Source: Hydrocarboniphaga sp.
Lineage (GTDB): Bacteria; Pseudomonadota; Gammaproteobacteria; Nevskiales; Nevskiaceae
Reading direction: 5' to 3'
DNA: 64,000 nucleotides
Assembly (NCBI RefSeq): GCF_028291725.1
Contig: NZ_JAQGNT010000010.1
Coordinates: 53,807-117,806 of the forward strand
Positions 35,706 to 53,170 of this stretch are shown here, piece by piece (within the stretch, counting starts at the first letter, position 1; each line of letters starts with the position of its first letter). The position numbers and the translations under genes were made by a program. Under the pieces are notes generated by a model. The model worked only from the letters and a program-made list of their open reading frames with translations. It had not been told where the DNA came from and ran no database searches.

Positions 35706-38700
35706 CTAGTTGAGAATGCTGGCCGGCAGACCGGTCGGTGCGCTGCGTGAAGCCAGATACCGGTTCATGTCGTCCGAGGGATGCACCTCGAGGTACACCT
35801 GCACCTCCGATGTGCCGAGTGCGCGCAGACGCGGCTGCAGTTCGTTCCATTGCGCTGGCGTGTACGCGGTCTGGAATTCGCTGAACTTGAAACGCTTCTG
35901 TCCTTCTGCGAAATCCGCCATCAGCGCGAGCAGGCCCTCGGCGCCGCTGTAGACCTTGATCAGCTTCGCCGGCGCGTTGGCCGACGGTGCCGGCGGCGGC
36001 GCCGCGAGCGAATCGAAGTGCGTGGCCAGGTCGGTTTCCACGGTCGCGGGGTCCGGCAGCGCGATGCGCAGCCGCGTCTCCAGGCAGGTATCCGGCGACC
36101 ACATCACCGCGACGCGCGCCTCCGCCAGCGACTCGGAGTGGGTGCTGGCGCTGAACGTGCGGTCCTGGCACTCGACTTCCAGCGTGGTGCCGAGCGCGCC
36201 TTCGCTGTATGCGCCGAAGCGGCTCGCGTCGGTGAACTGGAACGAGCCGGCCGCAAAAGCCTTGCCGCCACCAGGCCCGGACAGGCTGCTGCGCTGCTGC
36301 GACAGCAGCGCGGCGAAGCCCGGCGACAGCGGCATGCCGACACCGGCGACTTTGACCGCGGTGTTGTCGCGCTCGCTGACGAAGGGTTTCAGCCAGTCGT
36401 TGACGAAAGCGCCGAGCTTGCCGTGCTCGCCGTAGAGCAGGCCGGCGAGATCCTGCGGCGCGGCGCCTTTCAGCGGCGCCACCACGCTCTGCTGCCATTG
36501 GGCCTGCACGAACTGGCCAGCGCGGTACACCGTCAGAAACAGCAGCAGGCGCGGCGGGCCCTGCACGATCGCCCAGGCCGACAGATCCTCGGCGCGAAAA
36601 CCCTGTGAATAGCGCTCGTCGGGTTTGTCGACAGCCCGCAGCAGTGTCGTGTACTCGGCCGCCGGCGGCTGCGTGCTCGCGCCCTGGGACTTATAGATTT
36701 CGGCCGCGATCTGGTAGACGTCCTGGCCGCCGCCATCGGACTGCAGGCGCAGATAGCCGTGCGCCAGTGTCGGCGCCTGCGGCTGCAGCGCGCGCACCTC
36801 GGTATCTTTCATCGCCAGCAGCCAGGCCGGCGGATCGATCGCCGCCGGGCCGCCATTGCGCACCGCGTCGTCGACGAAATGCCACAGCGGCTTAAACGCG
36901 CCCAGCCAATGGGTCTTGACCTGCGCCCAGGCGACCGACCAGCGCAGCCTCAAAGGCAGATCCAGCGGCAGCCCGAACAGATTCCGCTGCGCGCTGACAA
37001 AAAAAAACAGGTACGGGTTCTGGTGCGTCGCCGCGCGCGCGGCGAGCGCGTCGTACTGGCCCTGCCACAATTTCAAGCCATCGCCGAAGCGCGACTGGAA
37101 CACCGCCCAGGCGCGGAAATACGCGGCGAAGTAGCTGCGGCGCAGGTCGTCAAGCGCAGTTTTTTTTTCCGGCAGCGCCGCGGCGACGGTCTTGATCATC
37201 GGCCGCAGCACGCCTTCCCAGGTGTCGAGCGTGTAGGCGCCGGAGACCGACGGCAGCGCGGCCGCATCGACCCCGACGACGCGATCGTCGGGCAGCCAGA
37301 ACTGGGTCAGCCGCAGGCCATCGCTGCGCGCCGCAGCCCAGCGCTCGACGTCGTCGGGACGCGGCGTGTAGGCGGTCATGATCCGCGCCAGCAGCGCCTT
37401 CAGGCGCTTGTCCTCGGCGTTGAGCACCTCGCGTTTCTGCCAGCGCAGGTAGCCGAGATAAGTCGATAGCAGTGCGATCGAATCTTCGCGATCCGCGCGC
37501 ACGTTGTCGTCGCTGGATGCAAACGGCGCGAACAGCCGCGAGGCCGGATCGAAGGCGACATTGTGCGGCAGCTCGCGCTGCAGGCATTCGTCGGTGCGAC
37601 GGCGGCAGTCGCTCAACATGCGCAGCCGCTGCGACACCGCGAGCACATGCTCGAAGCCGACGCGGCCCTGCGCCAGATCGGCTTCCAGTGCCTGGTCGTA
37701 GGGCGCCAGCACCTGGTTCGAAAAGCCGTCGACGACGGCCTGCTTCAGCGCCGCGAGATCGCTGTCGGAACGGCGGATGCCGAAGCCCAGCAGCGCGCCA
37801 TCGGCGGCCACCTGCAGCTGCTGGATGCTGCGCCCGCAACTCGCCAGCGCCTTGATCCGCCCGGCCCGCGCCTCGCCCTGCAGATCGCTGCAGGCCGCGC
37901 GCAGCTGCAGCTGCAGGCGGGCGTCGTCGCGATGCGCCGCCGAGAAGCCGAGCGCGATCGACGCCGACAGGCCGAGCATCGCGACCACGCCCAGCGCGGC
38001 CACCGACATGCGCGCACTGTTGCCGCGCAGGCTGGGTACCGCCAGCGACTGATCGCTGGGCAGGAAGCGCGTGAACAGATCCGCGACAAACGCACCGCCC
38101 GCCTCGGCAGCGCTGCCGGCACCCGTAAAGTACAGCCCGCGCCAGCGCGGCGTGCGCTGGAACGGGTTGTCCTCGAGCAACAGCTTGATCAGGCTGCCCA
38201 GGCCGTACTGCATGCGGCGCAGGCTCTCGACGAACTCGAACACGTCGCGCCGCGTCTCCGGCGTGGCCTGAGCGCGCATCGCCGACAGCCGCAGCGCGTG
38301 CAGGCGCTCGAAGATAGGCTGCAGGATATCTTCGGTGTGCGCGCTGGTCGCGGCGCTGATGACATCGCTCTCCGGCAGGCGATGGCCGAGCGCCTGGTCG
38401 AAAGCCTCTTTTGGCAGCGCGGCGCGGAATGCCGCGTAGCCCTGCAGCTTTTCCAGCCCGGTGACCACGCAATACACCGGCATGTTCGCCTGCAGATGCT
38501 CCATCGCCTCGTCGACCAGGCGGCGCAAGCGCAGGCCGACGACTTTTGTTTCTTCGACACCCGACAGCAGGGTTTTCGCGCTGATGCACAGCACGATGCC
38601 GTTCAGCGGCAGACGTTCGCGGCGTGACGCGAGCTGCATCAACGCCTGGTACCAGAGCCCGCGATCGAGCCGCGCCGCCGCGTCGCAGACCACGCGCGGA

Positions 38701-39257
38701 TTCATCTCGATCGCGATCAGCGATTTGAAGAACCACCAGCGCCAGACCTGCTTGGGATCGTGGGCCGGTTGCGTCGGCGGCGGGAACGGCGACACCGCGT
38801 TCGCGGCCTGCAGCAAGCCGCCGGCATCGGCCACGCCGTCGCCGACGAACATCAGCCAGGGCACGCGATAGATCGGGTCCTTGCCGCGATCGATCTGCGG
38901 CGAACGCAGGATCGTATTGCGCGCCTCGTTGAGTGCCTGCGCCATCCGTTCCAGCGGTTCGCGCTCGTCCTCGGGATTGCCCGGCCCGAGATCGCCGATG
39001 CGCTTCTTGCTGCGCCCGGCCAGCGAGTAGCGCTTGGCGCCGAGCGTGAACCACCAGATCACGCCGAGCGCGACCAGGCAGATGCCGAGCAGCTGCCAGA
39101 AGCGCGCCGGCAGCAGCGGCAGCACCGTGGTCAGCAGCCACACGAGCAGCGCGATCAGCAGCAGGCCGATGAAGAACGCAGCAATACGCCGCGGCCAGAG
39201 TTTGGCCAGGCCCGGAATGCGGACGAAGAGATTGGCCCAGCGGTCGTAGAGATTCAT
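35706..39257 (-). CDS. tssM: type VI secretion membrane subunit TssM (IcmF family)
   Basis: A 1183-residue IcmF-like protein of the membrane complex. Two TM helices (about 24-46 and 53-70) enclose a cytoplasmic domain up to a third TM near residue 410 (LGVVAMLGLSASIALGF); a long periplasmic part follows, ending in the conserved PWALFRLLD-like region (ADFAEGQKRFKFSEFQTAYT). The expected Walker A (GxxGxGKT) reads FVGDGVADAGGLLQAAN, so it probably does not bind ATP, as in other TssMs. It lies between tssL and tssA. Confidence 0.93.
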   Translation of the reverse strand: MNLYDRWANLFVRIPGLAKLWPRRIAAFFIGLLLIALLVWLLTTVLPLLPARFWQLLGICLVALGVIWWFTLGAKRYSLAGRSKKRIGDLGPGNPEDEREPLERMAQALNEARNTILRSPQIDRGKDPIYRVPWLMFVGDGVADAGGLLQAANAVSPFPPPTQPAHDPKQVWRWWFFKSLIAIEMNPRVVCDAAARLDRGLWYQALMQLASRRERLPLNGIVLCISAKTLLSGVEETKVVGLRLRRLVDEAMEHLQANMPVYCVVTGLEKLQGYAAFRAALPKEAFDQALGHRLPESDVISAATSAHTEDILQPIFERLHALRLSAMRAQATPETRRDVFEFVESLRRMQYGLGSLIKLLLEDNPFQRTPRWRGLYFTGAGSAAEAGGAFVADLFTRFLPSDQSLAVPSLRGNSARMSVAALGVVAMLGLSASIALGFSAAHRDDARLQLQLRAACSDLQGEARAGRIKALASCGRSIQQLQVAADGALLGFGIRRSDSDLAALKQAVVDGFSNQVLAPYDQALEADLAQGRVGFEHVLAVSQRLRMLSDCRRRTDECLQRELPHNVAFDPASRLFAPFASSDDNVRADREDSIALLSTYLGYLRWQKREVLNAEDKRLKALLARIMTAYTPRPDDVERWAAARSDGLRLTQFWLPDDRVVGVDAAALPSVSGAYTLDTWEGVLRPMIKTVAAALPEKKTALDDLRRSYFAAYFRAWAVFQSRFGDGLKLWQGQYDALAARAATHQNPYLFFFVSAQRNLFGLPLDLPLRLRWSVAWAQVKTHWLGAFKPLWHFVDDAVRNGGPAAIDPPAWLLAMKDTEVRALQPQAPTLAHGYLRLQSDGGGQDVYQIAAEIYKSQGASTQPPAAEYTTLLRAVDKPDERYSQGFRAEDLSAWAIVQGPPRLLLFLTVYRAGQFVQAQWQQSVVAPLKGAAPQDLAGLLYGEHGKLGAFVNDWLKPFVSERDNTAVKVAGVGMPLSPGFAALLSQQRSSLSGPGGGKAFAAGSFQFTDASRFGAYSEGALGTTLEVECQDRTFSASTHSESLAEARVAVMWSPDTCLETRLRIALPDPATVETDLATHFDSLAAPPPAPSANAPAKLIKVYSGAEGLLALMADFAEGQKRFKFSEFQTAYTPAQWNELQPRLRALGTSEVQVYLEVHPSDDMNRYLASRSAPTGLPASILN

Positions 39258-39335: not shown

Positions 39336-40670
39336 TCATTTCTTCGGCTCCGTCTGCATGAACAAAAAGTTCGCCGCCAGACGATCGGCACCCGGGTTGG
39401 CGTCGAGCAGCTCGCGCAGCCGCGGCACATACACCGAGGCCTGCTCGATTTCCGGCCGCTCGCTGGCATACAGCGGCACCGGTGAGGCGATCACCGTGAT
39501 CAGCTCCTGCCCGAACGGCGGGCCGATCAACCATGGCGCCTTCTCGCCGACGACGAACTGCTCGCCGCCGACGATCACGCGGCCGCTGTCGGGCTCGCGC
39601 TTGTTCGGGTACAGGTGCAGCACGCTGCCGTCGACGGTGTAGTAGTCGACGTACAGATAGCCGTCGTAGCTCGCCTGGCGCAACTGCACCTTGACGCGCT
39701 CGTCCTCGATGAAGCGATCCGAGTGGCCGGTGGTCGGCATCACCTCCAGGCCCTGGCGGCGTTCCTGATTGCGTTCGCGGAACGGCTTCAATATCTGCAC
39801 CACTTCGCAGTGCGGCCAGATCCGTACCGCGATGTCGAAGCTCGGCGTCTTCACGCCGCGAATCGCGCTGATGTCGGTCTTGACCTGCTCGATTTCCTCG
39901 GGCTTGGAGACGAAGCCGCGCACCTGGGTCGCACCATCGTCCGTAACCGTCGCACTCAGGTCCGAGCAGATGTAGCCCTGCAGACGCTGATCGATCTGCT
40001 GCGCCAGCGTCGGCCCGCTGTCCTGCGGCTGTGCCAGCAGCACATAGACCAGGTACAGCAGCGGAATCAGCAGCGCCAGCGCGATGCCGCCTTTCAGCAG
40101 CAGCTGGTCCCACTGCCGCGGATAGCGGTGCCCTGAAGGATCGCGGCTCAGATAAGGCTGCGGCGTAATGCGTTCTTCGCGCAGCGTGTGCGTCGGCGCC
40201 GGCGCCACCGGTAGCTGGCGCGCATGGATTTCCTTGATCTTGCCGAGTTCGCCGTTGTCGCCGGTTTCGAAATAGTACTGGCCGACGAAACCGCACAGCA
40301 GCGCGTGGTAATAGACCTCGCGCACCTCGTCGTCGCTGGCTTTCAGCGCGCCGAGCTGATTGAAGAATTCGTTGCCGGCGTTGTTGGTGTTGAACAGCGT
40401 CACCTGCAGCGGCGTGCCCGAGCCCCAGTACGCCGGGTTGCGCGCGATGATCTCGTCCAGCCAGGCAACGACCGCGAACACCGCCGCGTCGGTCTGCTCG
40501 GCGCGGCGGCCGGACGCGAGCGCTGCAGCCTTGGCGCGATCGATCGCCGCGCGCAGCCTGGCGTAGACATCGGTGATCGAGGACGGCGGCTTGCCGGCGG
40601 CGATCAGCGCGTCCAGCTCGAGGCCGAGCGAGAATGCCGGCGCAAAGCAGTCGAAGAGTCGGGTGGCCAC
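39336..40670 (-). CDS. tssL: type VI secretion protein TssL with C-terminal DUF4384-like extension
   Basis: A 444-residue membrane-complex protein. N-terminal DotU/TssL cytoplasmic hook (residues about 1-185; DAAVFAVVAWLDEIIARN, TLFNTNNAGNEFFNQL), one TM (about 192-213), then a periplasmic BON-like segment (about 225-295; RGFVSKPEEIEQVKTDISAI) and a DUF4384-like domain (about 325-435; SYDGYLYVDYYTVDGSVLHL, ending NFLFMQTEPKK). Classical extended TssLs carry an OmpA-type peptidoglycan-binding domain instead; its motif is not seen. 10 nt after tssK. Confidence 0.9.
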   Translation of the reverse strand: MATRLFDCFAPAFSLGLELDALIAAGKPPSSITDVYARLRAAIDRAKAAALASGRRAEQTDAAVFAVVAWLDEIIARNPAYWGSGTPLQVTLFNTNNAGNEFFNQLGALKASDDEVREVYYHALLCGFVGQYYFETGDNGELGKIKEIHARQLPVAPAPTHTLREERITPQPYLSRDPSGHRYPRQWDQLLLKGGIALALLIPLLYLVYVLLAQPQDSGPTLAQQIDQRLQGYICSDLSATVTDDGATQVRGFVSKPEEIEQVKTDISAIRGVKTPSFDIAVRIWPHCEVVQILKPFRERNQERRQGLEVMPTTGHSDRFIEDERVKVQLRQASYDGYLYVDYYTVDGSVLHLYPNKREPDSGRVIVGGEQFVVGEKAPWLIGPPFGQELITVIASPVPLYASERPEIEQASVYVPRLRELLDANPGADRLAANFLFMQTEPKK

Positions 40671-40680
40671 AGGTCGCCCC

Positions 40681-42093
40681 CTACTCTTCCGCGCCGACCG
40701 GATACAGCTTGATCACGGTGCTCTCGGACGGCAGATCGCAGGCCACTGCGATGTTGCGGCGCTGCTTGATCATGGTCCAGAACGCATGCGTGGTATCGAC
40801 CAGAAAGTACGTCGTATTCGGCGTCTTCTGCGGCAGCTCTTCCGGCGGCACCGGCAGCAGATCGATCTTCAGGCCGAACAGCGCGGCCTGCAGCAGCCGC
40901 GGCATTTCCTCGATCGTGCAGATCTTGCCGGTGCGCGACAGCCGCTGCGACAGATCCATGCCCTTGGTCTCGGACTCGATCGCCAGATAGAACCGCGTCT
41001 TGTCGTTCTCGAACAGCTTCGGCGGAATCTCCGCTTTGTAGTGGCGGCCATCGTAGGCGAGCGTGATGCCGACTTCGGCGCCCACCGTCAGCGCCTTGAT
41101 CAACTGCTCGGCGCGTGCGAACGCGACCTGGAAGCAGCCGCGCAGATCATCGTGATCGTAGGCAGGCAACTCGGTCTCGGGCTTGTCCAGCAGACCGCCG
41201 AAATACGAGATCTCCTCGGAGAACACCGAGAATTCCGCGACCAGTTCGCGCAGCCGCGCGTACAGCGAGTACGGCGACAGCTGCTGCAGCCGCACCGCTT
41301 CCTGCAGCGCCGGAATGTAGCGGCCGAAGGTCTGCATCATCACCACGCGCATCACTTCCTGGGCGCTGGTCGAGGCCGCGCGGATGCCGCGCTGGCGCTT
41401 GATCGTCGAGAAATCCTGGCCCTTGGAGACCAGCAGATCGCGGAAGCTGTGCGCCCAGCGCGACAGGTTGGCGGAAGCCGCCATCGTCACGCTCGGCGGC
41501 ACGTAGTCGATCGACAGCTTGTAGCGGCCCGGCCCGTTCGACAGCAGTTCGGCGAGCTTGTAGGCCTCGTTGCCCTGCAGCACCGCCTGCACGTTCTCGT
41601 CGAGCGAAGTCACCAGCGACAGCTGGTAGCGCAGCAGATCGACATCGACAGCCGGCGATTGCGGATCGTAGGGGTCGGCAACCGAGACTGTCTCCAGGTA
41701 GTGGCGCGTCGGCAGGCGCGCGGCGTCGCCGCGGCGCAGGCCGGCGACAGCGGCGTCCTGCGACAGCACCAGATAGATCGCGATCGGCGTGCCGCTGGTC
41801 GCGGTGATCGCCGACAGATTGCGTTCGCCGACGCGGGCATTGCCGTTGGCCGAGGAGCCGCCCTCGATGCGCAGCCCGCTGCGCGTCCACAGCACGAAGC
41901 GCGACAGATCGAAGACGCCGCTGGACAAGGCGTCGTCGCGGAAAGTCAGCGTCTCGAAACCCCAGGGATAAGGATGCGTCAGGCGCTGCAGGCGCTGGCC
42001 GCGATCGACGTGATGCGCGTCCTGGCGCTGCAGATGCTGCGGCGTCAGGAATGCGCCCTGGCCCCAGAAAACCTGATGGATCGCGTCGCTCAT
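40681..42093 (-). CDS. tssK: type VI secretion baseplate subunit TssK
   Basis: A 470-residue trimeric adaptor joining baseplate and membrane complex. MSDAIHQVFWGQGAFLTPQH (family: VxWxEGxFLxPQHFQ), then PWGFETLTFRDDALSSGVFD and YLVLSQDAAV follow the family pattern, with C-terminal IKLYPVGAEE. The ATG at 42093 is chosen; the frame is open to 42243 but that runs through repeat sequence. First T6SS gene of this block. Confidence 0.93.
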   Translation of the reverse strand: MSDAIHQVFWGQGAFLTPQHLQRQDAHHVDRGQRLQRLTHPYPWGFETLTFRDDALSSGVFDLSRFVLWTRSGLRIEGGSSANGNARVGERNLSAITATSGTPIAIYLVLSQDAAVAGLRRGDAARLPTRHYLETVSVADPYDPQSPAVDVDLLRYQLSLVTSLDENVQAVLQGNEAYKLAELLSNGPGRYKLSIDYVPPSVTMAASANLSRWAHSFRDLLVSKGQDFSTIKRQRGIRAASTSAQEVMRVVMMQTFGRYIPALQEAVRLQQLSPYSLYARLRELVAEFSVFSEEISYFGGLLDKPETELPAYDHDDLRGCFQVAFARAEQLIKALTVGAEVGITLAYDGRHYKAEIPPKLFENDKTRFYLAIESETKGMDLSQRLSRTGKICTIEEMPRLLQAALFGLKIDLLPVPPEELPQKTPNTTYFLVDTTHAFWTMIKQRRNIAVACDLPSESTVIKLYPVGAEE

Positions 42094-42290
42094 CGTCTGT
42101 CCTTCATCGAATTCTCTGCGAAACCCCGTTCCTCCCGAGTAGCCGGCCCGTTCGCCCCGAGTAGCGCCGCAGGCGCGTATCGAGGGGAGCGGCGTATCGA
42201 GAGACCTGAGCACGATGTGTCCCTCCCTCGATACGTCCCGCAACGCGGGACTACTCGGGACGATCGGAGAGCGATCGGTTTTGTTTTTTT
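42094..42290. repeat. family F palindromes and a T-rich hairpin upstream of tssK
   Basis: CCCGAGTAGCGCCGCAGGCG...ATCGAGGG (about 42157-42187) faces CCTCGATACGTCCCGCAACG...GACTACTCGGGA (about 42227-42260), another inverted pair with GTAG within. It ends in CGATCGGAGAGCGATCG plus a T-rich run (42261-42290), shaped like an intrinsic terminator read on the plus strand, though no plus gene ends here. Confidence 0.6.
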
Positions 42291-42292
42291 CA

Positions 42293-43246
42293 CTAGATCG
42301 GCTCCACGCTGAGCTGGTAGCCGCGCTGCACCAGTTCGGCGAGCAGGCCGGATTCGCCGGTCAGGTGCATCGCGCCGACCGCGACGAAACAGCTGCCCGA
42401 ACGCAACAGCGCATCGAGCCGGCCGATCCAGCGGCGGTTGCGCTCGGCCAGCAGGCAGTCCTTCGCGCGCGTCTCGATTGCCTTTGCGGCGGCGTCGAGG
42501 CCGGTCATCGCATCGATCTCGTCCAACCAGGCCGGCAGATCCCGGCTGCGGTAATAGCCGAGCACGCGCAGCGATTGTTCTTTCAGCACCCAGGGCGCCT
42601 CGATGCGGCGCGCCAGCACCTGCGCCTGTTCGCGCGCCGGCACGCAGTCGAGCGCGGCCATCTGCTCGTTCAGCGTTTCCAGGTGCACGCGGCGCAGGCC
42701 GGCCTCGTCCGCCCAGCGCGATATTCTCCCGTCGAGCTGCTTGTCTCGGTTGGCCGGCGAGGCAATCTCGCCGCGCGACTCCAGCACCGACAGCACCACC
42801 CAGGGCTTGAGCTTCTGCAGGCGCTCGGCCGGCACGTCCGGCATCAGCGGCAGCAGATTGTCGAAAGCCTTGGCGCCGATCAACTTCGGCAGCGAATCCG
42901 GCGGTGCCAGGAAGCGATGCCGATCGGTCTCCGCGTCGAAGCTTGCCGAAGCATCGGCCTCGTCGACCAGCGTCTGCGTACTCACGATCACATCGCGCAG
43001 CGCGTCGGCATCGAGCGCCAGCTCGTCGAGCGAGCCGTAGTGAATGCTGGCGAACACGAAGCTGCTGGCCGGCGCAGGTGCGTCAAGCTGCGCTGCTACA
43101 AGCGGCGGCGTCAGCCGGAACAGCACGCCATGCCAGCTGCGCCAGGCCGGCGCGATGCTGTCATCGTCCACGCTCGCGGCAACCGGATTGCAGGCGGTCA
43201 TCGCGGCGGCGTACAGCATCAGCAGCGGGCAGTATTTTTTCGGCAT
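42293..43246 (-). CDS. TraB/GumN family lipoprotein
   Basis: A 317-residue member of the TraB/GumN (Tiki-like) family, thought to be metal-dependent hydrolases or proteases. ATG 43246 gives a lipoprotein signal peptide (MPKKYCPLLMLYAAAMTAC) with lipobox Cys19. Conserved boxes are ASIHYGSLDE, the VDEADAS motif, CLLAERNRRWIGRLDALL and FVAVGAMHLTGESGLL. It lies upstream of tssK on the same strand but separated by repeats, so membership in the T6SS operon is uncertain. Confidence 0.88.
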   Translation of the reverse strand: MPKKYCPLLMLYAAAMTACNPVAASVDDDSIAPAWRSWHGVLFRLTPPLVAAQLDAPAPASSFVFASIHYGSLDELALDADALRDVIVSTQTLVDEADASASFDAETDRHRFLAPPDSLPKLIGAKAFDNLLPLMPDVPAERLQKLKPWVVLSVLESRGEIASPANRDKQLDGRISRWADEAGLRRVHLETLNEQMAALDCVPAREQAQVLARRIEAPWVLKEQSLRVLGYYRSRDLPAWLDEIDAMTGLDAAAKAIETRAKDCLLAERNRRWIGRLDALLRSGSCFVAVGAMHLTGESGLLAELVQRGYQLSVEPI

Positions 43247-43405
43247 GGTCGCGGTCTTGAACCGGCGCCATCTTCCGCAACAGCATGCCCGCGGACCATA
43301 GCTCATCGGGTCTATGACCTCGGGCTGGCCATACGGCTTAATTGATCTAGACCGGCCTAGCGGCTAAGGTCCGCGGACTCTTAAAACCATGCAGGGATCG
43401 TTCTC

Positions 43406-44089
43406 GTGCACGTACTGATCGCAGACGACCACCGCCTGGTCATCGAAGGCGTCAAGCTCAAGATGGCCGAGTTGGCGGACGCGGTGAGGTTCACCACCGC
43501 GATGACCGCGCAGGAGCTCGCCGAAGTGCTGGCGCGCGAGGATGCGAGCTTCGATCTGGCGCTGCTCGATCTGTCGATCCCCGGCGCGAACGGCTTCAGC
43601 CACATCGAGCAGGCACGCAGCGAACACCCGAGCCTGCCGATCGTGGTGCTGTCCGGCAACGAGGATGCGGAGCTGATGCGCCGGCTGCTGGATCTGGGCG
43701 TGCTCGGCTTCATTCCCAAGGCCTATTCGCCGGAGGTGATGCTGTCGGCGGTGCGCCTGGTGCTGGCCGGCGGCATCTACATTCCGCCGATGATGCTGAA
43801 CCAGATCAGCGGCTCGTCGATCCCCTACTCCAGCAATTATTCCAGCAACGGTGCGGCGACGCCGGTGGCCACGCCGGAGAACATCGACGCATTGCGCCGC
43901 ATCCTGACCGAACGCCAGGTGGATGTGCTGCGGCTGCTGTCGCAGGGCAAGCCGAACAAGCTGATCGCGCGCGATCTGGGCATCAGCGAGGGCACGGTGA
44001 AGATTCATCTGGCGGCGATTTATCGCGCGCTGAATGTGAGGAATCGGACGGAGGCGGTGGTGGCGTCGCGGAGGTTGGAGGGGTTGTAG
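43406..44089 (+). CDS. NarL/FixJ-type response regulator (LuxR-family)
   Basis: A 227-residue DNA-binding response regulator. Receiver with acidic pocket IADDH, phosphoacceptor Asp55 (LALLDLSIPG) and the conserved Lys in FIPKAYS; a Ser/Asn-rich linker (residues about 128-150); then a LuxR helix-turn-helix (LTERQVDVLRLLSQGKPNKL, GISEGTVKIHLAAIYRALNV). Start is GTG 43406 preceded by AGGGA; the ATG at 43389 is out of frame. It could be the output partner of the T6SS-side hybrid kinase, but no cognate kinase is adjacent. Confidence 0.93.
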   Translation: MHVLIADDHRLVIEGVKLKMAELADAVRFTTAMTAQELAEVLAREDASFDLALLDLSIPGANGFSHIEQARSEHPSLPIVVLSGNEDAELMRRLLDLGVLGFIPKAYSPEVMLSAVRLVLAGGIYIPPMMLNQISGSSIPYSSNYSSNGAATPVATPENIDALRRILTERQVDVLRLLSQGKPNKLIARDLGISEGTVKIHLAAIYRALNVRNRTEAVVASRRLEGL

Positions 44090-44175
44090 TTTTGCGCCTT
44101 GTTGGGGCTGCTCCGTGTTTCGGCTGCTCGCTCGGCGTCGATAGTCGCTGGAAGCTTGCAGCCTCGCCGGCGGGC

Positions 44176-44812
44176 CTTACTTTTCTTTGCTTGTGCAAAG
44201 AAAAGTAAGCAAAAGAAAGCACACCCTGGAGAGTCGCCGGCTGACGCCGGTCCCCGTGTAAAAAGACGTGCTCGGGGTCGGACGAATTCGGCATCCATGC
44301 CTCATTTCGTCCTCGTTTGGCCATCCATGGCCAAACGACCCGCTGCGCGCGACTTTTTACACGGCGACTCTCAAGGGAACCCGGCAAAGCGAAGTATCCG
44401 CCCCTGTAGGAGCGGGTCGTACCCGCGAGTGGAACCCCTCCGGAACAGTCGCGGGTACGACCCGCTCCTACAGTTTGAGAATCGGCCTTTGATTTTGATT
44501 TGCCGGGTTCCCTTGAAAGTCGCCGATTGTGGGGGCGCGCGCAGGGGGCAAGCGGCCATGGATGGCCGCTTGAGAGCGAAATGAGACAGGATGTCGAATT
44601 CGCTCGACCCCGAGCACGTCCCCACAATCGGGCACCGGCGTAAGCCGGCGACTTTCCAGGGTTTGGCGCCCCCACGGTGTCTGCGTTGTTTGCAGCGGGT
44701 GCGGGGGGCGCCAAACGGCGGCCACTCCCGCACCCCTTGCTGCGCAAACACCGTGTCGCGGCCGCCGCTTTCTTTTGGTAACTTTTCTTTGCACGAGCAA
44801 AGAAAAGTTACC
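44176..44812. repeat. 640-bp nested inverted-repeat element
   Basis: Each end is a long hairpin of nearly the same sequence: TTACTTTTCTTTGC/GCAAAGAAAAGTAA (44176-44207) and TAACTTTTCTTTGC/GCAAAGAAAAGTTA (44777-44812). Inward, about 65 bp at 44226-44292 (GTCGCCGGCTGACGCCGGT...GACGTGCTCGGGGTC) reappears inverted at 44585-44658. Next come GTTTGGCCATCCATGGCCAA (44316-44338) and GCGGCCATGGATGGCCGC. Then GGGAACCCGGCAAA faces TTTGCCGGGTTCCC. The family D pair (44403-44473) is in the middle. The right half has about 110 extra bases (44665-44770). No ORF inside. Confidence 0.8.
44403..44473. repeat. family D REP/BIME-like inverted pair
   Basis: CCTGTAGGAGCGGGTCGTAC from 44403; facing copy ends GACCCGCTCCTACAG at 44473. 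Core of the nested element, and matching 10118-10189 including flanks. Confidence 0.87.
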
Positions 44813-44993
44813 CCCGGCCGGGCAGGCCAAAACCACACAGTGACTATCGCTCCAGAGCGAGCAGCCATAAACAAGCCCCACCTCGTTATCTCCAACGGCC
44901 TAAGCGTTATGGCAAATGGGCGCGCGCTCATCGCGTGCCTAAGCTTCATCCGATCAGCCGCCTGCATCCGCGCGGCGTCCGCACGAAGCCGCC

Positions 44994-47090
44994 ATGACCT
45001 CCACACCGCTCCACCGTCGCCGCACGCGTCTGCCCGCATGGATCGCCGGCCTGCTGCTCTGCGCGGGCACCGCGCAGGCCGCCAACGACACCAGCTCGGT
45101 CACTGCCGCGCTTGATCGCCAGGCCGATGCCGACAGCCTGCAGGGCATTGCCGCCGAAGGCGCGCTGCTCTACGACGCGGAAGCCGTCAAGCAGGACGGC
45201 TATGCCTACTGCGGACAGTCCGTCGCCCTGTCCGAGCGCGGCGAGTTCCGGCTCAGCGTGCGCGCGGCCAGCAAAGCGCTGCATGTTGCGCTCGCGACCG
45301 GCAATGACGACCTGCAGGCACTGGCCAATCGCGATCTGGCGATCGCCTACAGCTACAGCGGCAATCTCGACCAGGCCGAGCGTTTCGCCACTGAAGCGCT
45401 GAAGCACAAGCCCAAGGATCCGCCGGTGGTGTTCGGCCCGGCGCACAAGATTCTCGGCGACGTCTATTCGCGCCGCGGCGACTACGCCAAGGCCGTCGCC
45501 AGCTACGAGGCCGCCGACAAGGCCAGCTCGGATCGCTTCCGCCCGCTGGTCAAGACTTCGCTTGCGAACACGCTGGTGGATTCCGGTGATCTGGCCCGCG
45601 CACGCAGCGTGTTTGCGGAAGTGCCGACGCAGCAGGACCCGACGCTGCGCAACCAGTTGCTGCGCACCAGCGCGCGGCTGCTGACCGCCGAGAAAAAACC
45701 CGAAGAAGCGATCGCGCTCTACGAAACCCTGGCCGCGACCCGCGATGGCGGTGATCCCGCTTATCTGCGGCTATGGGCGCAGGACGGCATCGCCCGCAAC
45801 CGGCTCGCACAGGGCGACAAGACCCGCGCCGCACGCGCCTGGGACGCGGCCACCGACGACGCCGACCAGGTGCGCGCCGAGTTCCGCAGCGAAGAAATCA
45901 AGATGGGCCTGTTCTCCGACGTGCAGGGCATGTTCGAGAACGCGATCGAGCTGTACATCGACATGGGCGATGCGCGCCGCGCCTTCGATCTCAGCGAACG
46001 CAGCCGCTCGCGTGCATTGCTCGACGCGGTGCGCGGCCGCGGGCCGGTGGATGCGGCCGCGACCATCGACAGCAAGACCCTGCAGGCGGCGTTGCGGCCC
46101 GACGAGCGCGTGCTGGAGTTCCATGCGCTGCGCGACGAGCTGATCGCCTGGATCATCGCGCCGAACGAGATCCGCGCAGTGCGCCTGCCGCTGCCGCGCA
46201 GCGATCTGATCGCGGTGGTCGAGGCGTTTCGCAATTCGATCATCGGCGGCAAGCGCTCGGCGGTATCCGGCGCCGAGCAGATCGGCGTGCTGCTGCTGAA
46301 ACCGCTGCAGCTCGAAGCCGGCACGCGGCTGATCATCGTGCCGCACGGCCCGCTGCACTACCTGCCGTTCCAGGCGCTGCGGCTGAACGATCATTATCTC
46401 ATTGAGGATCACCGCATCTCGATCGCGCCCTCGAGCACGATCGCGACGCAGCTCGCGCAGCGGCCGGTGCATGCCCGGCACAAGCTGGTCGCGTTCGGCA
46501 ATCCGCTGATCGAAGCCAAGTACGACCTGCCCGGCTCGGAGGGCGAAGTCAAAGCGGTGTCGGGCTACTTCGACGACAAGAGCGTGTATTTGCGCGCCGA
46601 CGCAACCAAGGCGCATTTCCGTGAGGCCAGCGCCGGCGCCGGCATCGTCCACGTCGCCGCGCACGCGATGGCCGATTTCGTCGACCCGCTGTATTCGCGC
46701 ATTCTGCTGGCCAACGAGAACGGCAAGCAGAGCTTTCTCGAAGCGCACGAAGTGCTGGCGATGAAACTCGAGGGCGTCGACGTGGTGACGCTGTCGGCCT
46801 GCGAATCGGGCCTGGGCAAGATCGCCAGCGGCGACGAAACCCTGGGCTTTACGCGCAGCTTTCTGTCGGCCGGCAGCTCCAGCCTGATCGCCTCGCTGTG
46901 GCCGGTGTCCGACGACGCCGCCGAACTGCTGATGACCACGCTGTACCGCGATCTCGCCGGCGGCGCGGATCTGCAGAGCGCGATGCAGGACGCGCAACTG
47001 GCGGTGCTGCGCAATCCCAAGATGGCCCATCCGTTCTTCTGGGCCCCGTTCAACCTGATCGGCAACTGGCGCCTGACGGTGAAGCAATGA
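44994..47090 (+). CDS. exported TPR-CHAT (caspase-fold) protein
   Basis: A 698-residue protein: signal peptide (LPAWIAGLLLCAGTAQA, cut near residue 29-30), a TPR array (about 70-340; ANRDLAIAYSYSGNLDQAER, LGDVYSRRGDYAKAVASYEA), and a C-terminal CHAT domain (about 360-690). The CHAT catalytic dyad is present: His557 in HVAAHAMADF and Cys603 in TLSACESGLGKI, followed by GFTRSFLSAGSSSLIASLWP and PFFWAPFNLIG. CHAT proteins are caspase/separase-like cysteine proteases. Being exported and coupled by ATGA to a TpsB gene, it may process or regulate the TpsA exoprotein. Activity and substrate unknown. Confidence 0.9.
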   Translation: MTSTPLHRRRTRLPAWIAGLLLCAGTAQAANDTSSVTAALDRQADADSLQGIAAEGALLYDAEAVKQDGYAYCGQSVALSERGEFRLSVRAASKALHVALATGNDDLQALANRDLAIAYSYSGNLDQAERFATEALKHKPKDPPVVFGPAHKILGDVYSRRGDYAKAVASYEAADKASSDRFRPLVKTSLANTLVDSGDLARARSVFAEVPTQQDPTLRNQLLRTSARLLTAEKKPEEAIALYETLAATRDGGDPAYLRLWAQDGIARNRLAQGDKTRAARAWDAATDDADQVRAEFRSEEIKMGLFSDVQGMFENAIELYIDMGDARRAFDLSERSRSRALLDAVRGRGPVDAAATIDSKTLQAALRPDERVLEFHALRDELIAWIIAPNEIRAVRLPLPRSDLIAVVEAFRNSIIGGKRSAVSGAEQIGVLLLKPLQLEAGTRLIIVPHGPLHYLPFQALRLNDHYLIEDHRISIAPSSTIATQLAQRPVHARHKLVAFGNPLIEAKYDLPGSEGEVKAVSGYFDDKSVYLRADATKAHFREASAGAGIVHVAAHAMADFVDPLYSRILLANENGKQSFLEAHEVLAMKLEGVDVVTLSACESGLGKIASGDETLGFTRSFLSAGSSSLIASLWPVSDDAAELLMTTLYRDLAGGADLQSAMQDAQLAVLRNPKMAHPFFWAPFNLIGNWRLTVKQ

Positions 47091-48685
47091 AGGTCTCGCG
47101 TACTCTGGTTCTCTTCGCGGCCGGGATCGGCGCTCTGGCGACGCTCGCGCCCGCTGCGCAGGCACAGGACGCCGCGCTAGCCGAGGCCGCCACTGCGCCG
47201 GTCAGCGTCACGCTGCGCGATGTGCGCTTCGTCGGTGTCACCGCGGTCGATACTCGCGCGCTGCGCTGGCTGGTGCACGAGCAGTTCGGCAAGACGCTCA
47301 CCTACGAGCAGCTGCAGGAACTCGCTGAGCGCGTCACCCGCTACTACCGCAAGCGCTCGTTCTTCCTGGCGCGGGCGACGCTGCCGGTGCAGGACGTCAG
47401 CAGCGGCGTCGTCGAAATCGACGTCAGCGAAGGCCGGCTCGGCCGCATGATCGTGCATGTCAGCGAAGACGCGCCGATCAGCGAGGCGCGGGTGCGCGCG
47501 ATTCTCGAGCCGCTGAATCAGGGCACGGCTTTCAACAACACAAGCTACGAGCGCGTGATGCTGCTGTTGTCCGACCTGCCCGGCGTCAAGGCGAGTTCGA
47601 GCCTGGAAGAAGGCACCGCCGTCGGCACCACCGATCTGCGCGTCGAGATCAGCGCCAAAAAGCGCTGGCAGCTGGCGGTCGACGCCGACAACGACGGCAC
47701 CGAGAGCACCGGCCGCGAGCGCGCCGGCCTGACCGCGCGCTGGCTGAGCCCGGCCGGCATCGGCGACAACCTCGATGCGCGCCTGCTGCTGTCGGACGAT
47801 GCCTCGCTGGCGTTTGGCCGGCTGTCCTACGAGGCACCGGTCGGCAGCGACGGCTGGCGCGCCGGCGTCGGCGCCGCGCATGTGCAATACGATCTCGGCG
47901 GCCAGTACTCGGCGCTGGACGCCAAGGGCACCGCGGAAGTCGCCAACCTGTTCGCCAACTACCCGATGGTGCGCTCGCGCAACGAGAACGCTTTTCTGAG
48001 GCTCAACGCCGAATACAAGTCGCTGGACGACAAGCTCGACGCAGTCGACCTGGAGAGCAAGAAGCATGTCGCCAGCGTGTCGGCGACCACCAGCTACGAG
48101 AGCCGCGACACCTGGATGGGCGGCGGCTACAGCAATCACTCGATGGGCGCGACGTTTGGCCACCTGACGATCGACGATGCGCTGTCGCGCAATCTCGACC
48201 AGAGCGTGTTCGGCCGCGACACCCAGGGGCATTTCTTCAAGGTCAGCTTCCAGCTGAGCCGGCTGCAGTACCTGTTCCCGCGCAATAACCTGTTCGTCGC
48301 GGTGGCCGGCCAGGCCGCCGAGAAGAATCTGGATGCTTCCGAGCAGCTCAACATCGGCGGCGCCGGCACCGTGCGCGCCTACGCCAACAGCGAGCTGCTC
48401 GCCGACAACGGCGTGATCGTCAATGTTGAATGGCGCATCGCGCTGAGCAGCGAAGTCACCTTGTTCCCGTACTACGACTACGGCCACGGCAGCGTCGTCA
48501 ACCGCGTCGCCACCGACGACGACGACGCGCGCACGATCAGCGGTCCCGGCATCGGCATCACCTGGGCGCGGATCGGCAATTTCTTCGTCACCACGTCGGT
48601 CGCCTGGCGCGGTGTCGGCGAGCCGCTCAGCGAGGGCAGCTCGCATGAGCCGCGCTGGCTGTGGCAGCTGCAGAAAAATTTTTGA
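47087..48685 (+). CDS. TpsB outer-membrane transporter (ShlB/FhaC/HecB family)
   Basis: A 532-residue two-partner secretion translocator of the Omp85 superfamily. Signal peptide MKVSRTLVLFAAGIGALATL...AQA, POTRA region (DVRFVGVTAVDTRALRWLVH...VTRYYRKRSFFLARATLPVQ, then VSEGRLGRMIVHVS) and a C-terminal 16-strand barrel with the conserved NLFVAVAGQAAEKNLDASEQ and GGAGTVRAY (VRGY-like motif). It ends in a C-terminal Phe (QLQKNF), typical of outer-membrane barrels. The ATG overlaps the CHAT gene stop by 4 nt. Its substrate is the TpsA gene downstream. Confidence 0.93.
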   Translation: MKVSRTLVLFAAGIGALATLAPAAQAQDAALAEAATAPVSVTLRDVRFVGVTAVDTRALRWLVHEQFGKTLTYEQLQELAERVTRYYRKRSFFLARATLPVQDVSSGVVEIDVSEGRLGRMIVHVSEDAPISEARVRAILEPLNQGTAFNNTSYERVMLLLSDLPGVKASSSLEEGTAVGTTDLRVEISAKKRWQLAVDADNDGTESTGRERAGLTARWLSPAGIGDNLDARLLLSDDASLAFGRLSYEAPVGSDGWRAGVGAAHVQYDLGGQYSALDAKGTAEVANLFANYPMVRSRNENAFLRLNAEYKSLDDKLDAVDLESKKHVASVSATTSYESRDTWMGGGYSNHSMGATFGHLTIDDALSRNLDQSVFGRDTQGHFFKVSFQLSRLQYLFPRNNLFVAVAGQAAEKNLDASEQLNIGGAGTVRAYANSELLADNGVIVNVEWRIALSSEVTLFPYYDYGHGSVVNRVATDDDDARTISGPGIGITWARIGNFFVTTSVAWRGVGEPLSEGSSHEPRWLWQLQKNF

Positions 48686-48742
48686 GGCGCGCGCGATGAA
48701 AGCACGCCCGTTGTTTTCCTTCCCATGAACCTAGCGCAGACC

Positions 48743-48808
48743 GTAGGGCGGGTCGTGACCCGCCGCTTTTGCTCGGGCTCGACGACGGCGGGTCACGACC
48801 CGCCCTAC
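48743..48808. repeat. family A REP/BIME-like inverted pair
   Basis: GTAGGGCGGGTCGTGACCCG from 48743; facing copy ends GACCCGCCCTAC at 48808. It lies between tpsB and tpsA within the operon. Confidence 0.87.
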
Positions 48809-48898
48809 ACCGGGTTCATGGTCCGTCGGCAGGTCCGCACGGAACACGGGGCTCTCCATGAACCGGTTCCGCTCCCATTTTCGCATCGAGGCTAACTC

Positions 48899-51800
48899 AT
48901 GAACCCGCTCTTCCATCCGCGCCGCACTGCGATCGCGACTGCAGTCGCGATGCTCGCCTCGCCCGGCCTGCAGGCCGGAACGCTGCCGACCGGCGGTGTC
49001 GTCGCCAGCGGCGGCGCGACCATCAGCCAGAATGCGGCCACCACCGCGATGACGGTCAACCAGAGCACGCAGAGCGCAATCATCAACTGGACCGGCTTCT
49101 CGATCGGCGCCGGCGACAGCGTGCAGTTCGTGCAGCCCAATACCACAGCGGTGGCGCTGAACCGCGTCACCGGCGGCCAGGCCTCGAACATCGCCGGCAA
49201 CCTGTCGGCGAACGGACGCGTGTTCCTGGTGAATCCCTCCGGCGTGGTTTTCGCCAGCGGCTCACAGGTCAATGTCGGCGGCCTGGTGGCGTCGACCCTG
49301 GGAATCAGCGACGCCGATTTCAACGCCGGCGTCGCCAGCGGCCAGTTCGTTTTCAGCGGCGCGGTCGACGTCAATGCCGCAGTCACCAGCAGCGGCACGA
49401 TCACCGCGGCCAACGGCGGCACCGTCGCGCTGCTCGGCAACGCGGCCAATACCGCGAGCGGCATCATCACCGCGGACGGCGGCAGCATCGCGATCGGCAA
49501 CGGGCCGAGCGTGACGCTGGATTTCCAGGGCGACGGCCTGACCCAGCTGACCGTCAGCGGCACACCGGCTTTCCAGCCAGCGGGCGTCGCCAATGCCGGG
49601 ACGCTGCAGGCCGACGGCGGCCGCGTGGTGATGCGCGGCGCCTCGCGGCTCGACGCCTCTGACCTGGTCGTGAACCAGAGCGGCACCATCCGCGCGCGTT
49701 CGCTGCAGAGCCGCGGCGGCCAGATCATTCTCAGCGGTGGCGACGAGGGCGCAGTCGATGTGTCGGGTGCGCTGGACGCGTCGTCGATCGCGGCGACCGC
49801 GGCCGGCGGCAGCATCGCCATCGACGGCCAGCGGGTTTCGATCCAGGACACGGCGACGCTGAACGCCAGCGGCAGCGGCGGTGCCGCCAGCGGCACGGTC
49901 GATATCGCCAGCGAGGCCAGTGTCGTCGTCGCCTACGCTCCCGACGCGCCCGAGGATTCCTACATCAGCGTAGCGGCCGTCAACAGCGCGCTTGACGGCG
50001 CGCAGAACACGCGCATCGCCAGCACCGCCGGCCAGATCAACATCGGCGACGACGTCGCGCTGGTCCGCAGTCTGGGCGATGAGCGCGCCAGCCTGACATT
50101 CGAGGCCGCGCGCGCGTTCTTCGGCGGCGTCGATCCCACCGGTGCGGCGGTGCCCTGGTCGGTGAACAGCACGGCCGGCGCGCTCGATCTCAACGTCAAC
50201 GCACAGTCCTCGGTGGTCATCAACGAGGCCAGCATCCAGACCAATGGCGGCGATGTCAGCCTGACCAGCGTCAACAGCAACACCGCCGCGCTCGACATCA
50301 CCGACACCATCATCGACACGCGCATCGCGCAGAACGCCGCCAATGCCAGCGGCAGCGTCGCGCTGAGCGGTACCGGCGCCGACGCCGGCGTGCGCATCGG
50401 CAACAGCCAGGTGTTGACCAGCAGCGGCGCGATTCTGATCGACGGCCGCACCAGCGCGGTGGCCAGCCCGTATGCCGCGCCCGGCGTGGTCATCGCCGCG
50501 GGCAATGCAGGCAGCCTGATCAGCAGCGGCAGCGGCGACATCACCATCACCGGCATCGGCCGAGACGGCGACAACGGCGTCACCGTGCTCGACAGCATCG
50601 TGAGCAGCCTCAGCGGCAGCGTCGACGTCGCCGGCCGCGGCGAAACCGCCGGCGTGCAGCTGCTGCAGAACACCGGTTTTGAAACCCGCATCGATGGTGG
50701 CAGCGGCGTGCTGCTGACCGGCACCGCGACCGGCGCAGGCCCGGGCATCGCGGTCGACAGCGCCGCCAGCGTCAACAGTGCCGCCGGCTCGGTCGCATTG
50801 CGCGCGGAAACCGCCGTCGCCGGCGGCGCGCCGGTCACGGTGGGCTTCAACGCGGCGGTCACGGCCGCATCGACGATCGATCTGCGGCCAGGCGGGCTGG
50901 CGGCCGACGGCACGCGCTTCGACAGCAGCGCCAGCAACATCATCCTTGGCAGCGGCAGCAGCGGCTTCGTGGTTGGCGATGCGCTGCTCGACACGCTCGA
51001 TGCACCCAACCTCGTCGTCGGCTCGGATACGCATTCCGGCAACATCCAGGTGCAGTCCGCGATCACACTAGCTCGCAACCTGACGCTGCAGAACAGCAGC
51101 GGCGGCATCACGCTGAACCAGTCGGTCGATGTCGGCACCAAGGTTCTGGCGCTGTCCAGCGCCGGCGACATCCGGCAGAACGGCGGTGGCATCACCGCAA
51201 GATCCTTGCTGGCGCAGTCCTCGGCGGGCTCAGTGATCCTGGACAGTACGGCCAACGCCGTCAGCACCAACACTCTCGCCGGCTCGGCCGCCGGCGACTT
51301 CAGCTACGTCAACGCGAATGCGATCGGTGTCGGCACCGTCAATGCGAACGGCTACGCCAGCGGCACCAATGCGCCGACTGCGCTGAGCGCGACCGGGATC
51401 GCCGCAGGCGGCGACGTGCTGGTGCAGACGCTGGCCGGCGACCTGATCCTGAACGCCGCCATCAGCGGTGCGAATGTCGATCTGGTGACCGCCGGTGTAT
51501 TCGACAACGCCGGCAGCGCACCGGTCACCGCCAGCGGCGCGGCGCACATCTACGCGCCGAACTTCAGCGGCGAGAATCGCGGCGGCCTGGCCGGCGGCAA
51601 TCGGTACAACTGCAGTTTCGGCGGCAGCTGCACCGCCGGTCTGCCGGCCAGCGGTGTGACCTATGTCTATACGTACCAGCCGACCCTGAACATCGACATC
51701 GCCGACGCGATCCGCGAATACGGGCTCGCCAATCCGGCGCTGCTGTTCGCGCTCACCGGCCTGGTCAACGGCGACACCCAGGCGACCGCGCTGTCCGGCG

Positions 51801-53170
51801 GCCCGACAACCGCGGCGACCACCGGCAGCAATGTTGGCAACTACGCAATCCTCGGCGGCTTCACCTCGCTGCAGGGCTATGCGCTGAACATCGCTCCGGG
51901 CGTACTGGCGATCACGCCGGCGCTGCTGAGCTATGTCGCCAGCACGTCCTCGCGCGAATACGGGCTGGCCAATCCGCTGTTCGGCGGCACCGTCACCGGC
52001 TTCCGCAATGGCGACACCATCGCCAGCGCCACTACCGGCACACTGGCCTTCACGTCGCCGGCGACAACGGGATCCAACGTCGGCAACTATGCGATCAACG
52101 GCAGCGGGCTCAGTGCCGGCAACTACAGGTTCGCGCAGGCCGCCGGCAACGCGACCGCGCTGCAGATCATCCAGGCGACGCTGAGCTACGTCGCCAACGG
52201 CATCAGCCGCGAGTATGGCCTGGCCAACCCGGCGCTTGGCGGCAGCGTCACCGGCTTCCGCAATGGCGACACCCTCGGCAGCGCGACCACCGGTACGCTG
52301 GCCTTCACCACCGCCGCGACCATCGGCTCCAACGTCGGCAGCTATGCAATCAACGGCAGCGGCCTTAGCGCCGGCAACTACCGCTTCGTGCAGGCAGCGG
52401 GCAATGCCGGCGCCTTGCAGATCATCCAGGCGACGCTGAGCTACGTCGCCAACGGCATCAGCCGCGAATACGGGCTGGACAATCCTGCCTTGACCGGCAC
52501 CGTCACGGGCTTCCGCAACAACGACACCATCGCCAGCGCGACCAGCGGCACCTTGGGCTTCACCACCCCGGCGAACATCGGCTCGAACGTCGGCGACTAC
52601 GCGATCACCGGCAGCGGCCTCAACGCCGGCAACTACCGTTTCGTGCAATCCGCCGGCAATGCAAGCGCCTTCCAGATCACGCGCGCGACGCTGCTGTATG
52701 TCGCCGACCCGGCGACGCGCGGGCTCGGCTCGCCGAATCCGGAACTCAGCGGCAGCGTGACCGGCCTGCGCAACGGCGACACGCTGGCGAGCGCCACGGA
52801 CGGCAGCGCGGTGTTCGCGACCAACGCCGACGCGAGTTCGCCGATCGGCAGCTACGCGATCACCGGCTCGGGACTGAGCGCGCAAAACTACGTGCTGGCG
52901 CAGGCACCGGGCAATGCGGCGAGCCTGTCGGTGGTGCCGGTGATCGCGCTGCCTGCAGTGGCCGAAGTGATCACGCTGCCGGAGACCGATGTCTACGGCA
53001 ACAACTTCGGCCCGATGGCGGCGATCTGCGCGACCTCGCTCAGCGATCCGGGCGCGGTCGGCGGCGGCAGCGATCCGCTGGCACACGACTGGTCGCTGCT
53101 GCGCAGCAAGCCCAACCTGACGTCCTGCGTCGACACGCAGAAGAAGAACAGCTGCTCGGCGGGATTCTGA
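48899..53170 (+). CDS. TpsA two-partner secretion exoprotein with MBG repeats
   Basis: A 1423-residue filamentous-haemagglutinin-like protein. Extended signal peptide (residues 1-26), TPS secretion domain (about 27-290) with the hallmarks IINWTGFSIGAGDSVQF, ALNRVTGGQASNIAGNL and NGRVFLVNPSGVVFASGSQV, a long Gly/Ser/Asn-rich beta-helix (about 290-930), and MBG-type domains (about 935-1350; REYGLANP...GTVTGFRNGDT...NYAINGSG). Near the C-terminus two cysteines (TSCVDTQKKNSCSAGF, 8 residues between) recall the disulfide-closed anchor of Haemophilus HMW1A. Probably stays on the surface as an adhesin or matrix protein. Exported by the TpsB upstream. Confidence 0.92.
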   Translation: MNPLFHPRRTAIATAVAMLASPGLQAGTLPTGGVVASGGATISQNAATTAMTVNQSTQSAIINWTGFSIGAGDSVQFVQPNTTAVALNRVTGGQASNIAGNLSANGRVFLVNPSGVVFASGSQVNVGGLVASTLGISDADFNAGVASGQFVFSGAVDVNAAVTSSGTITAANGGTVALLGNAANTASGIITADGGSIAIGNGPSVTLDFQGDGLTQLTVSGTPAFQPAGVANAGTLQADGGRVVMRGASRLDASDLVVNQSGTIRARSLQSRGGQIILSGGDEGAVDVSGALDASSIAATAAGGSIAIDGQRVSIQDTATLNASGSGGAASGTVDIASEASVVVAYAPDAPEDSYISVAAVNSALDGAQNTRIASTAGQINIGDDVALVRSLGDERASLTFEAARAFFGGVDPTGAAVPWSVNSTAGALDLNVNAQSSVVINEASIQTNGGDVSLTSVNSNTAALDITDTIIDTRIAQNAANASGSVALSGTGADAGVRIGNSQVLTSSGAILIDGRTSAVASPYAAPGVVIAAGNAGSLISSGSGDITITGIGRDGDNGVTVLDSIVSSLSGSVDVAGRGETAGVQLLQNTGFETRIDGGSGVLLTGTATGAGPGIAVDSAASVNSAAGSVALRAETAVAGGAPVTVGFNAAVTAASTIDLRPGGLAADGTRFDSSASNIILGSGSSGFVVGDALLDTLDAPNLVVGSDTHSGNIQVQSAITLARNLTLQNSSGGITLNQSVDVGTKVLALSSAGDIRQNGGGITARSLLAQSSAGSVILDSTANAVSTNTLAGSAAGDFSYVNANAIGVGTVNANGYASGTNAPTALSATGIAAGGDVLVQTLAGDLILNAAISGANVDLVTAGVFDNAGSAPVTASGAAHIYAPNFSGENRGGLAGGNRYNCSFGGSCTAGLPASGVTYVYTYQPTLNIDIADAIREYGLANPALLFALTGLVNGDTQATALSGGPTTAATTGSNVGNYAILGGFTSLQGYALNIAPGVLAITPALLSYVASTSSREYGLANPLFGGTVTGFRNGDTIASATTGTLAFTSPATTGSNVGNYAINGSGLSAGNYRFAQAAGNATALQIIQATLSYVANGISREYGLANPALGGSVTGFRNGDTLGSATTGTLAFTTAATIGSNVGSYAINGSGLSAGNYRFVQAAGNAGALQIIQATLSYVANGISREYGLDNPALTGTVTGFRNNDTIASATSGTLGFTTPANIGSNVGDYAITGSGLNAGNYRFVQSAGNASAFQITRATLLYVADPATRGLGSPNPELSGSVTGLRNGDTLASATDGSAVFATNADASSPIGSYAITGSGLSAQNYVLAQAPGNAASLSVVPVIALPAVAEVITLPETDVYGNNFGPMAAICATSLSDPGAVGGGSDPLAHDWSLLRSKPNLTSCVDTQKKNSCSAGF
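51926..52945 (+). repeat. four tandem 255-bp MBG-domain coding repeats
   Basis: Units begin at 51926, 52181, 52436 and 52691 with CTGAGCTA(T/C)GTCGCC (the last one CTGCTGTATGTCGCC). Units 2 and 3 are very alike in DNA, unit 4 diverged. A fifth, more divergent unit precedes at about 51690. Copy number could change by recombination. Confidence 0.85.

Follow-up and report, generated by a model that had tools for sequence, protein, structure and literature searches.

We analyzed a stretch of 64,000 nucleotides (the window) from contig NZ_JAQGNT010000010.1 of Hydrocarboniphaga sp., in which three consecutive forward-strand genes encode a TPR-CHAT protein, a TpsB transporter and a TpsA exoprotein of the two-partner secretion (TPS) type. 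The elements of this cassette are located as follows.

44994–47090, + strand: TPR-CHAT gene, 698 aa (Pfam CHAT, 3.4e-68; several TPR families above their cut-offs)
44994–45080, + strand: predicted Sec signal peptide, residues 1–29
45210–45212, + strand: codon of Cys73, a further conserved cysteine of CHAT
46275–47066, + strand: CHAT domain, residues 428–691 (Pfam; structure model near Csx29 and separase)
46662–46664, + strand: codon of the catalytic His557
46800–46802, + strand: codon of the catalytic Cys603
47087–47090, + strand: 4-nt overlap of the CHAT stop and the TpsB start (ATG at 47087)
47087–48685, + strand: TpsB transporter (ShlB, 3.2e-25, barrel at residues 180–491; POTRA_2, 1e-15, POTRA at residues 42–116)
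48743–48808, no strand assigned: perfect 23-nt inverted repeat between TpsB and TpsA, resembling repeated intergenic elements
48899–53170, + strand: TpsA exoprotein, 1423 aa (TPS domain, 7.6e-31, residues 33–290; five MBG_2 stretches, 6.4e-75)
52982–53167, + strand: conserved C-terminal tail of TpsA, 62 residues with three cysteines, ending in Cys-x8-Cys
53090–53092, + strand: codon of the tail Trp
53102–53104, + strand: codon of the tail Arg, candidate P1 residue

Open reading frames (ORFs) and Pfam searches confirmed what the earlier note had read at this locus, that is, a TPR-CHAT protein with His557 and Cys603, its 4-nt overlap with TpsB, and a TpsA with MBG repeats. The POTRA domain and ShlB barrel of TpsB, together with the N-terminal TPS domain of TpsA, define a two-partner (type Vb) secretion system, and the CHAT domain with its His/Cys pair identifies, at the sequence level, a CHAT protease, the single CHAT match in this 6.47-Mb genome. 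Both catalytic residues are kept in 85 of 85 aligned subfamily CHATs, and of the three cysteines in the window protein (positions 23, 73 and 603) Cys73 is the sole further conserved one (84/85, with one gap). Its predicted signal peptide, judged by eye, consists of a hydrophobic stretch followed by A-Q-A; a crude scan found a hydrophobic N-terminal 10-mer in 77 of the 85 subfamily members, the remaining eight being in part truncated or probably having mis-set starts. This signal-like N-terminus makes a role of CHAT in the cell envelope plausible.

A first structure model of CHAT, built on 27 sequences, was of low quality around the active site and was replaced by one from a deeper alignment. 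The predicted structure is similar to Csx29, separase and the gingipain fold, and also resembles DdvA, a transmembrane anti-sigma factor known to us by its PDB title only, on which a literature search found nothing. With Csx29 (Craspase) and separase the window protein shares TPR or helical repeats joined to a CHAT/separase-like catalytic domain with a His-Cys pair. However, Csx29 and separase are cytoplasmic or nuclear, whereas the window CHAT has a signal-like N-terminus, and its score against the NCBIfam Csx29 model is 50 bits for a curated cut-off of 300, so that we discarded a type III-E CRISPR assignment. A phage-defense reading was likewise rejected, as PADLOC returned BovA only (E 0.0046, 14 bits).

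To assess how far this arrangement is conserved, an alignment of 27 CHATs was used as query against genome contigs; it yielded 233 confirmed relatives, the best 80 of which were analyzed (53–78% CHAT identity). These belong mostly to Variovorax and other Burkholderiales, with further hosts among Rhodanobacter, Dyella, Thermomonas, Lysobacter, Luteimonas, Azotobacter and others; the nearest named relative is Hydrocarboniphaga effusa, with a CHAT 78% identical. TpsB followed CHAT in 79 of the 80 loci and TpsA came next in 75, on a single strand and in constant order, and the misses (L018, L034, L043, L060 and L075) are contigs that end 0–688 nt past the last gene. The start codon stands at the 4-nt overlap position in 43/80 CHAT-TpsB pairs, that of the window included. 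Genes beyond the trio, as grouped by crude clustering, are common to subsets of loci only, and three more divergent loci (~47% identity), carried by Caballeronia and Paraburkholderia replicons, keep both the order and the TpsA tail. The recurrence of the order in relatives argues that the arrangement in the window is not chance. By these comparisons CHAT, TpsB and TpsA form a single conserved unit, in which stop and start codons frequently overlap. The loss of gene order among relatives, which the earlier note had named as one of the outcomes that would refute it, was not observed, and the coupling of CHAT to TPS that it advanced gains strong support from the fixed order, the overlaps and the invariant catalytic residues.

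The end of TpsA is particular to this cassette. CHAT-linked TpsAs terminate in a shared tail of 62 residues, which contains three cysteines and, ahead of a Cys-x8-Cys end, an invariant Arg/Lys. Nine loci lacked it: eight reach the contig end before TpsA is complete, and in the ninth, L010, the TpsA ORF ends in another frame and the tail was not found. Including later loci, the set comprised 80 tails, 70 of them distinct. All 70 have three cysteines within the last 70 residues, and 68 conform to W-x2-[VIL]-[RK]-x-[RQ]-[PL] plus a final Phe, the last two cysteines lying 8 apart in 67 of these and 9 apart in one. The two off-pattern tails (window and L002) have the same Arg and the spacing of 8, with Lys as second basic residue and an extra residue before the final Phe. 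Two cysteines near the C-terminus are also a feature of HMW1-type anchored TpsAs. A reading of the cassette as a contact-dependent inhibition system (CdiA/CdiB) was rejected because TpsA terminates in this conserved tail instead of a variable toxic domain, with TPS and MBG_2 as its only Pfam domains.

We then related the tail to CHAT at the genome scale. The whole genomes behind 28 of the 80 loci contain one tail match each, always in the CHAT-linked TpsA; their 67 TPS-domain matches comprise these 28 proteins and 39 others (some of them fragments), none of which matched the tail, and their 43 CHAT matches include 28 in cassettes. Three larger samples were scanned with at most 23 or 42 tail candidates scored per genome. 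Among 150 genomes of the Variovorax family sample (centered on G278), CHAT was present in 54 and the tail in five, every time with a CHAT 6.0–7.9 kb upstream on the same strand; four of these loci were read and are cassettes, and the fifth is that of L008, whose genome is G278. The Thermomonas family sample (149 genomes, centered on G295) gave CHAT in 23 and a strong tail in four, all in cassettes: G295 (L066), G300 (L079), G501 and G531. Weak matches of 20.6–21.1 bits in G459, G516, G530 and G557 were judged to be chance, as they are partial, lie in ORFs of 231–279 aa and come from genomes not among the CHAT-positive ones. The class sample (274 genomes) contained CHAT in 40 and ShlB in 121, with the tail solely in the window genome. 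That the tail was found only with this CHAT lends support, on comparative grounds, to an action of CHAT on TpsA.

Fifteen CHAT loci were fetched from the class sample, nine with a nearby ShlB match on the same contig and six for comparison. In the former nine (L083–L091, from eight genomes) CHAT adjoins TpsB as in the window, but order and orientation vary, the His motif is another one, and TpsA ends, where visible, are unlike the tail; in the latter six, TpsB was not seen within the fetched stretch. CHAT-TPS pairing is thus broader than this cassette, and the tail is particular to it. The gammaproteobacterial CHAT loci L085, L086, L089, L092 and L094 adjoin genes that presumably encode CHASE2-cyclase and DUF928 proteins, and some of them also have TpsB.

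Two known systems offer precedents for a function. LapG is reported to free the TpsA adhesin CdrA by cleaving its periplasmic tail, and HMW1 to be retained by a C-terminal disulfide loop (PMC5422565, PMC3983070 and PMC4694147, jointly for both). CdrA/CdrB with LapG in Pseudomonas aeruginosa is like what we propose here in that a cysteine protease cuts the C-terminal periplasmic tail of a TpsA and releases it, but LapG is a transglutaminase-like protease, whereas the window has a CHAT protease whose gene forms a unit with those of TpsB and TpsA, and the tail is different. No LapG-family protease is a member of the cassette, and LapG was not searched for elsewhere in the genome. HMW1/HxuA of Haemophilus resemble the window TpsA in the two cysteines of its end, which there reportedly form a disulfide loop holding the protein at the surface; unlike them, the tail has a third cysteine and a conserved Trp-Arg region. 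HMW systems also have a third partner gene, which encodes a cytoplasmic glycosyltransferase in place of the protease found here.

On account of these precedents, the two-cysteine tail end and the constant predicted-protease companion, we propose a retain-and-release mechanism, in which a predicted periplasmic CHAT cuts the Cys-hook tail of its own TpsA and frees a predicted surface adhesin from the exporter, a reading that we take seriously while doubting it slightly more than we trust it. TpsA would be exported through Sec and TpsB and then retained by its Cys-x8-Cys loop, lodged in or under TpsB as in HMW1. With its TPR part docked on the tail, CHAT would use the His557/Cys603 dyad to cleave nearby, possibly at the invariant Arg/Lys between the tail Trp and the Cys hook, the candidate P1. 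Separase favors Arg at its cleavage site.

The pairing of one C-terminal tail with one clan CD-like protease is also the pattern of a sorting tag, and PorU is a clan CD protease that acts on type IX cargo. CHAT might accordingly be a PorU-like maturation or sorting protease that trims or transfers the tail during export and leaves TpsA stably anchored, as the similarity of the CHAT model to the gingipain fold would allow. However, comparison of the tail with known sorting signals gave no noteworthy match in Pfam, NCBIfam or PDB sequences, and its two-cysteine end is closer to an HMW1-type anchor than to a removable tag; we hold this alternative to be unlikely. Co-encoding with the exporter would equally suit a quality-control protease that clears stalled periplasmic TpsA, as DegP does with other TpsAs (PMC5422565). 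Yet a general clearing enzyme has no need of a dedicated tail, and other TPS systems in the same genomes manage without this CHAT, which renders such a role very unlikely.

The surroundings of the cassette point to a second association. In the window it lies next to a type VI secretion system (T6SS) cluster and to putative regulators.

42293–43306, – strand: TraB/GumN-family protein (relatives in other islands 39–69% identical)
43406–44089, + strand: LuxR-type response regulator (relatives in other islands 54–79% identical, one 38%)
40681–42243, – strand: tssK (Pfam T6SS_VasE, 1.1e-71), the nearest T6SS gene
39336–40670, – strand: tssL (DotU), with a C-terminal DUF4384 domain
35706–39257, – strand: tssM (IcmF-related)
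34625–35692, – strand: tssA
33901–34413, – strand: tssB
32347–33834, – strand: tssC
31777–32274, – strand: hcp
30739–31173, – strand: tssE (gp25-like)
28547–30640, + strand: hybrid histidine kinase (relatives in other islands)

The earlier note had delimited the cassette accurately, yet its borders left out this cluster, whose tssK starts 2.75 kb from CHAT; of its interpretation, CHAT-TPS coupling held, whereas the tail, the T6SS clusters and the hybrid histidine kinases had been overlooked. TssC was present in 29/29 genomes tested (the 28 plus the window genome), and in 23 of them tssC lay on the same contig within 81 kb of the cassette, compared with ~1.3 expected on the basis of genome size; this limit was chosen after the distances were seen. 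By comparison, none of the 39 other TPS loci was within 81 kb of tssC (nearest 94 kb; only 11/39 share a contig with it). Recurrent linkage to core genes above controls thus marks the cassette, by gene position, as a candidate T6SS accessory element. Among the genomes with no tssC within 81 kb, G278 and G288 have tssK and tssM ~14–15 kb beyond TpsA, and G290 has vgrG ~6 kb upstream of the cassette. In two annotated Caballeronia records, one cluster of which was read whole, the cassette sits between tssJ and tssA; the loci with this layout are L098, L102 and L103. In six stretches of 40–80 kb the cassette borders a T6SS cluster, and the identity of TssC to its Caballeronia counterpart (54–57% or 76–77%) divides these clusters into two kinds; distances and arrangements vary among genera. 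Among 59 loci with sufficient flank, a T6SS gene was found within 2.5 kb in 12, a count that leaves out tssL because its profile also matched OmpA-family neighbors.

T6SS linkage suggests that the adhesin might serve T6SS-dependent contact, holding a neighbor and then letting it go, possibly controlled by the hybrid kinase and the response regulator encoded nearby; both steps are inferred from gene linkage. In its fullest form, this idea makes the cassette a built-in grip of the T6SS: TpsA, fixed in the exporter by its three-cysteine tail, would clamp the neighbor, and the dedicated separase-like periplasmic protease would dock on the tail, possibly via a mixed disulfide between the odd tail cysteine and Cys73 of CHAT, and let the adhesin go, thereby coupling release to firing. 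We regard this extension as speculative and somewhat improbable.

In 28 of the 59 loci, a hybrid histidine kinase relative is encoded no more than 2.5 kb from the cassette. Together with the response regulator relatives in other islands, the T6SS linkage itself and the fold likeness to DdvA, this would fit CHAT being a signaling protease, activated by TpsA-sensed contact and acting on another envelope protein (e.g., the nearby hybrid kinase) to switch on the T6SS, with the tail a mere anchor. But the position of the kinase is not fixed, none lying within 2.5 kb in 31/59 loci, and we find this scheme rather improbable.

Several observations weigh against a release function coupled to the T6SS. 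The cassette-tssC distance is often 30–80 kb; in G285 vgrG stands 119 nt past TpsA, but tssC is 409 kb off; and in G281 and G284 no T6SS gene occurs in the stretches read (20 kb on each side; 12 and 20 kb in G284). These distances and unlinked cases would be expected if the linkage were functionally meaningless and the cassette only co-resident in T6SS gene islands. On the other hand, at least two T6SS kinds are linked (TssC identity to Caballeronia 54–57% versus 75–79%), the cassette is wedged between tssJ and tssA in the three loci mentioned, and the other TPS loci are never equally near tssC; mere co-residence is doubtful in our view, although it is an alternative of some weight. As the genomes are related, the linkage counts overstate independence. 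As to release, strict co-occurrence of CHAT and tail is equally expected from common descent of one cassette, tail absence in the larger samples is not proof because only part of the candidates was scored, the tail may be a mere anchor with CHAT acting elsewhere, and the CHAT model is less confident at residues 601–620.

Further observations concern the cassette and its neighborhood. Terminator-like and promoter scans did not rise above shuffled sequence, and upstream of CHAT, at 44120–44870, there are long nested inverted repeats that resemble repeated intergenic elements. ARAGORN called a probably false tRNA-Leu (gag) at 52567–52656 on the – strand, antisense in the repeat part of TpsA. OmpA-family genes occur near the cassette in several lineages (L066, 19415–20341; L057, 7386–8063; L139, 5173–5832). 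A second, distant CHAT, 29–31% identical to that of the window, is encoded within T6SS clusters, with hcp and pppA on either side and tssC 3–4 kb away, at L107 (G286:C26:24159-25070) and L119 (G284:C16:32462-33370).

A literature search, thin on subscription journals, found no description of a CHAT-TPS system or of a TPS cassette located within a T6SS cluster, nor any paper on a CHAT domain combined with two-partner secretion or with hemagglutinin. In a T6SS survey (PMC2660368), the terms hemagglutinin, haemagglutinin, two-partner, TPR and caspase were absent. According to PMC11854122, a Bacteroides fragilis T6SS locus has a variable region with CHAT-domain proteins, guessed there to be immunity proteins, so that the association of CHAT with T6SS may extend further; in PMC6722718, a CHAT protein is listed among those of a genomic island.

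Collectively, these comparisons indicate that several bacterial groups carry, usually near a T6SS, a fixed gene trio that encodes an outer-membrane exporter, a protease predicted to be caspase-like, and a giant protein with a conserved tail of its own, predicted to sit at the surface. If the proposed mechanism is true, it would be widespread and would combine a separase-like enzyme with a candidate substrate and a candidate site that are both defined. It would also provide a concrete answer to how T6SS-armed cells might grip and free their neighbors, one that could be tested in common soil bacteria, for instance Variovorax.
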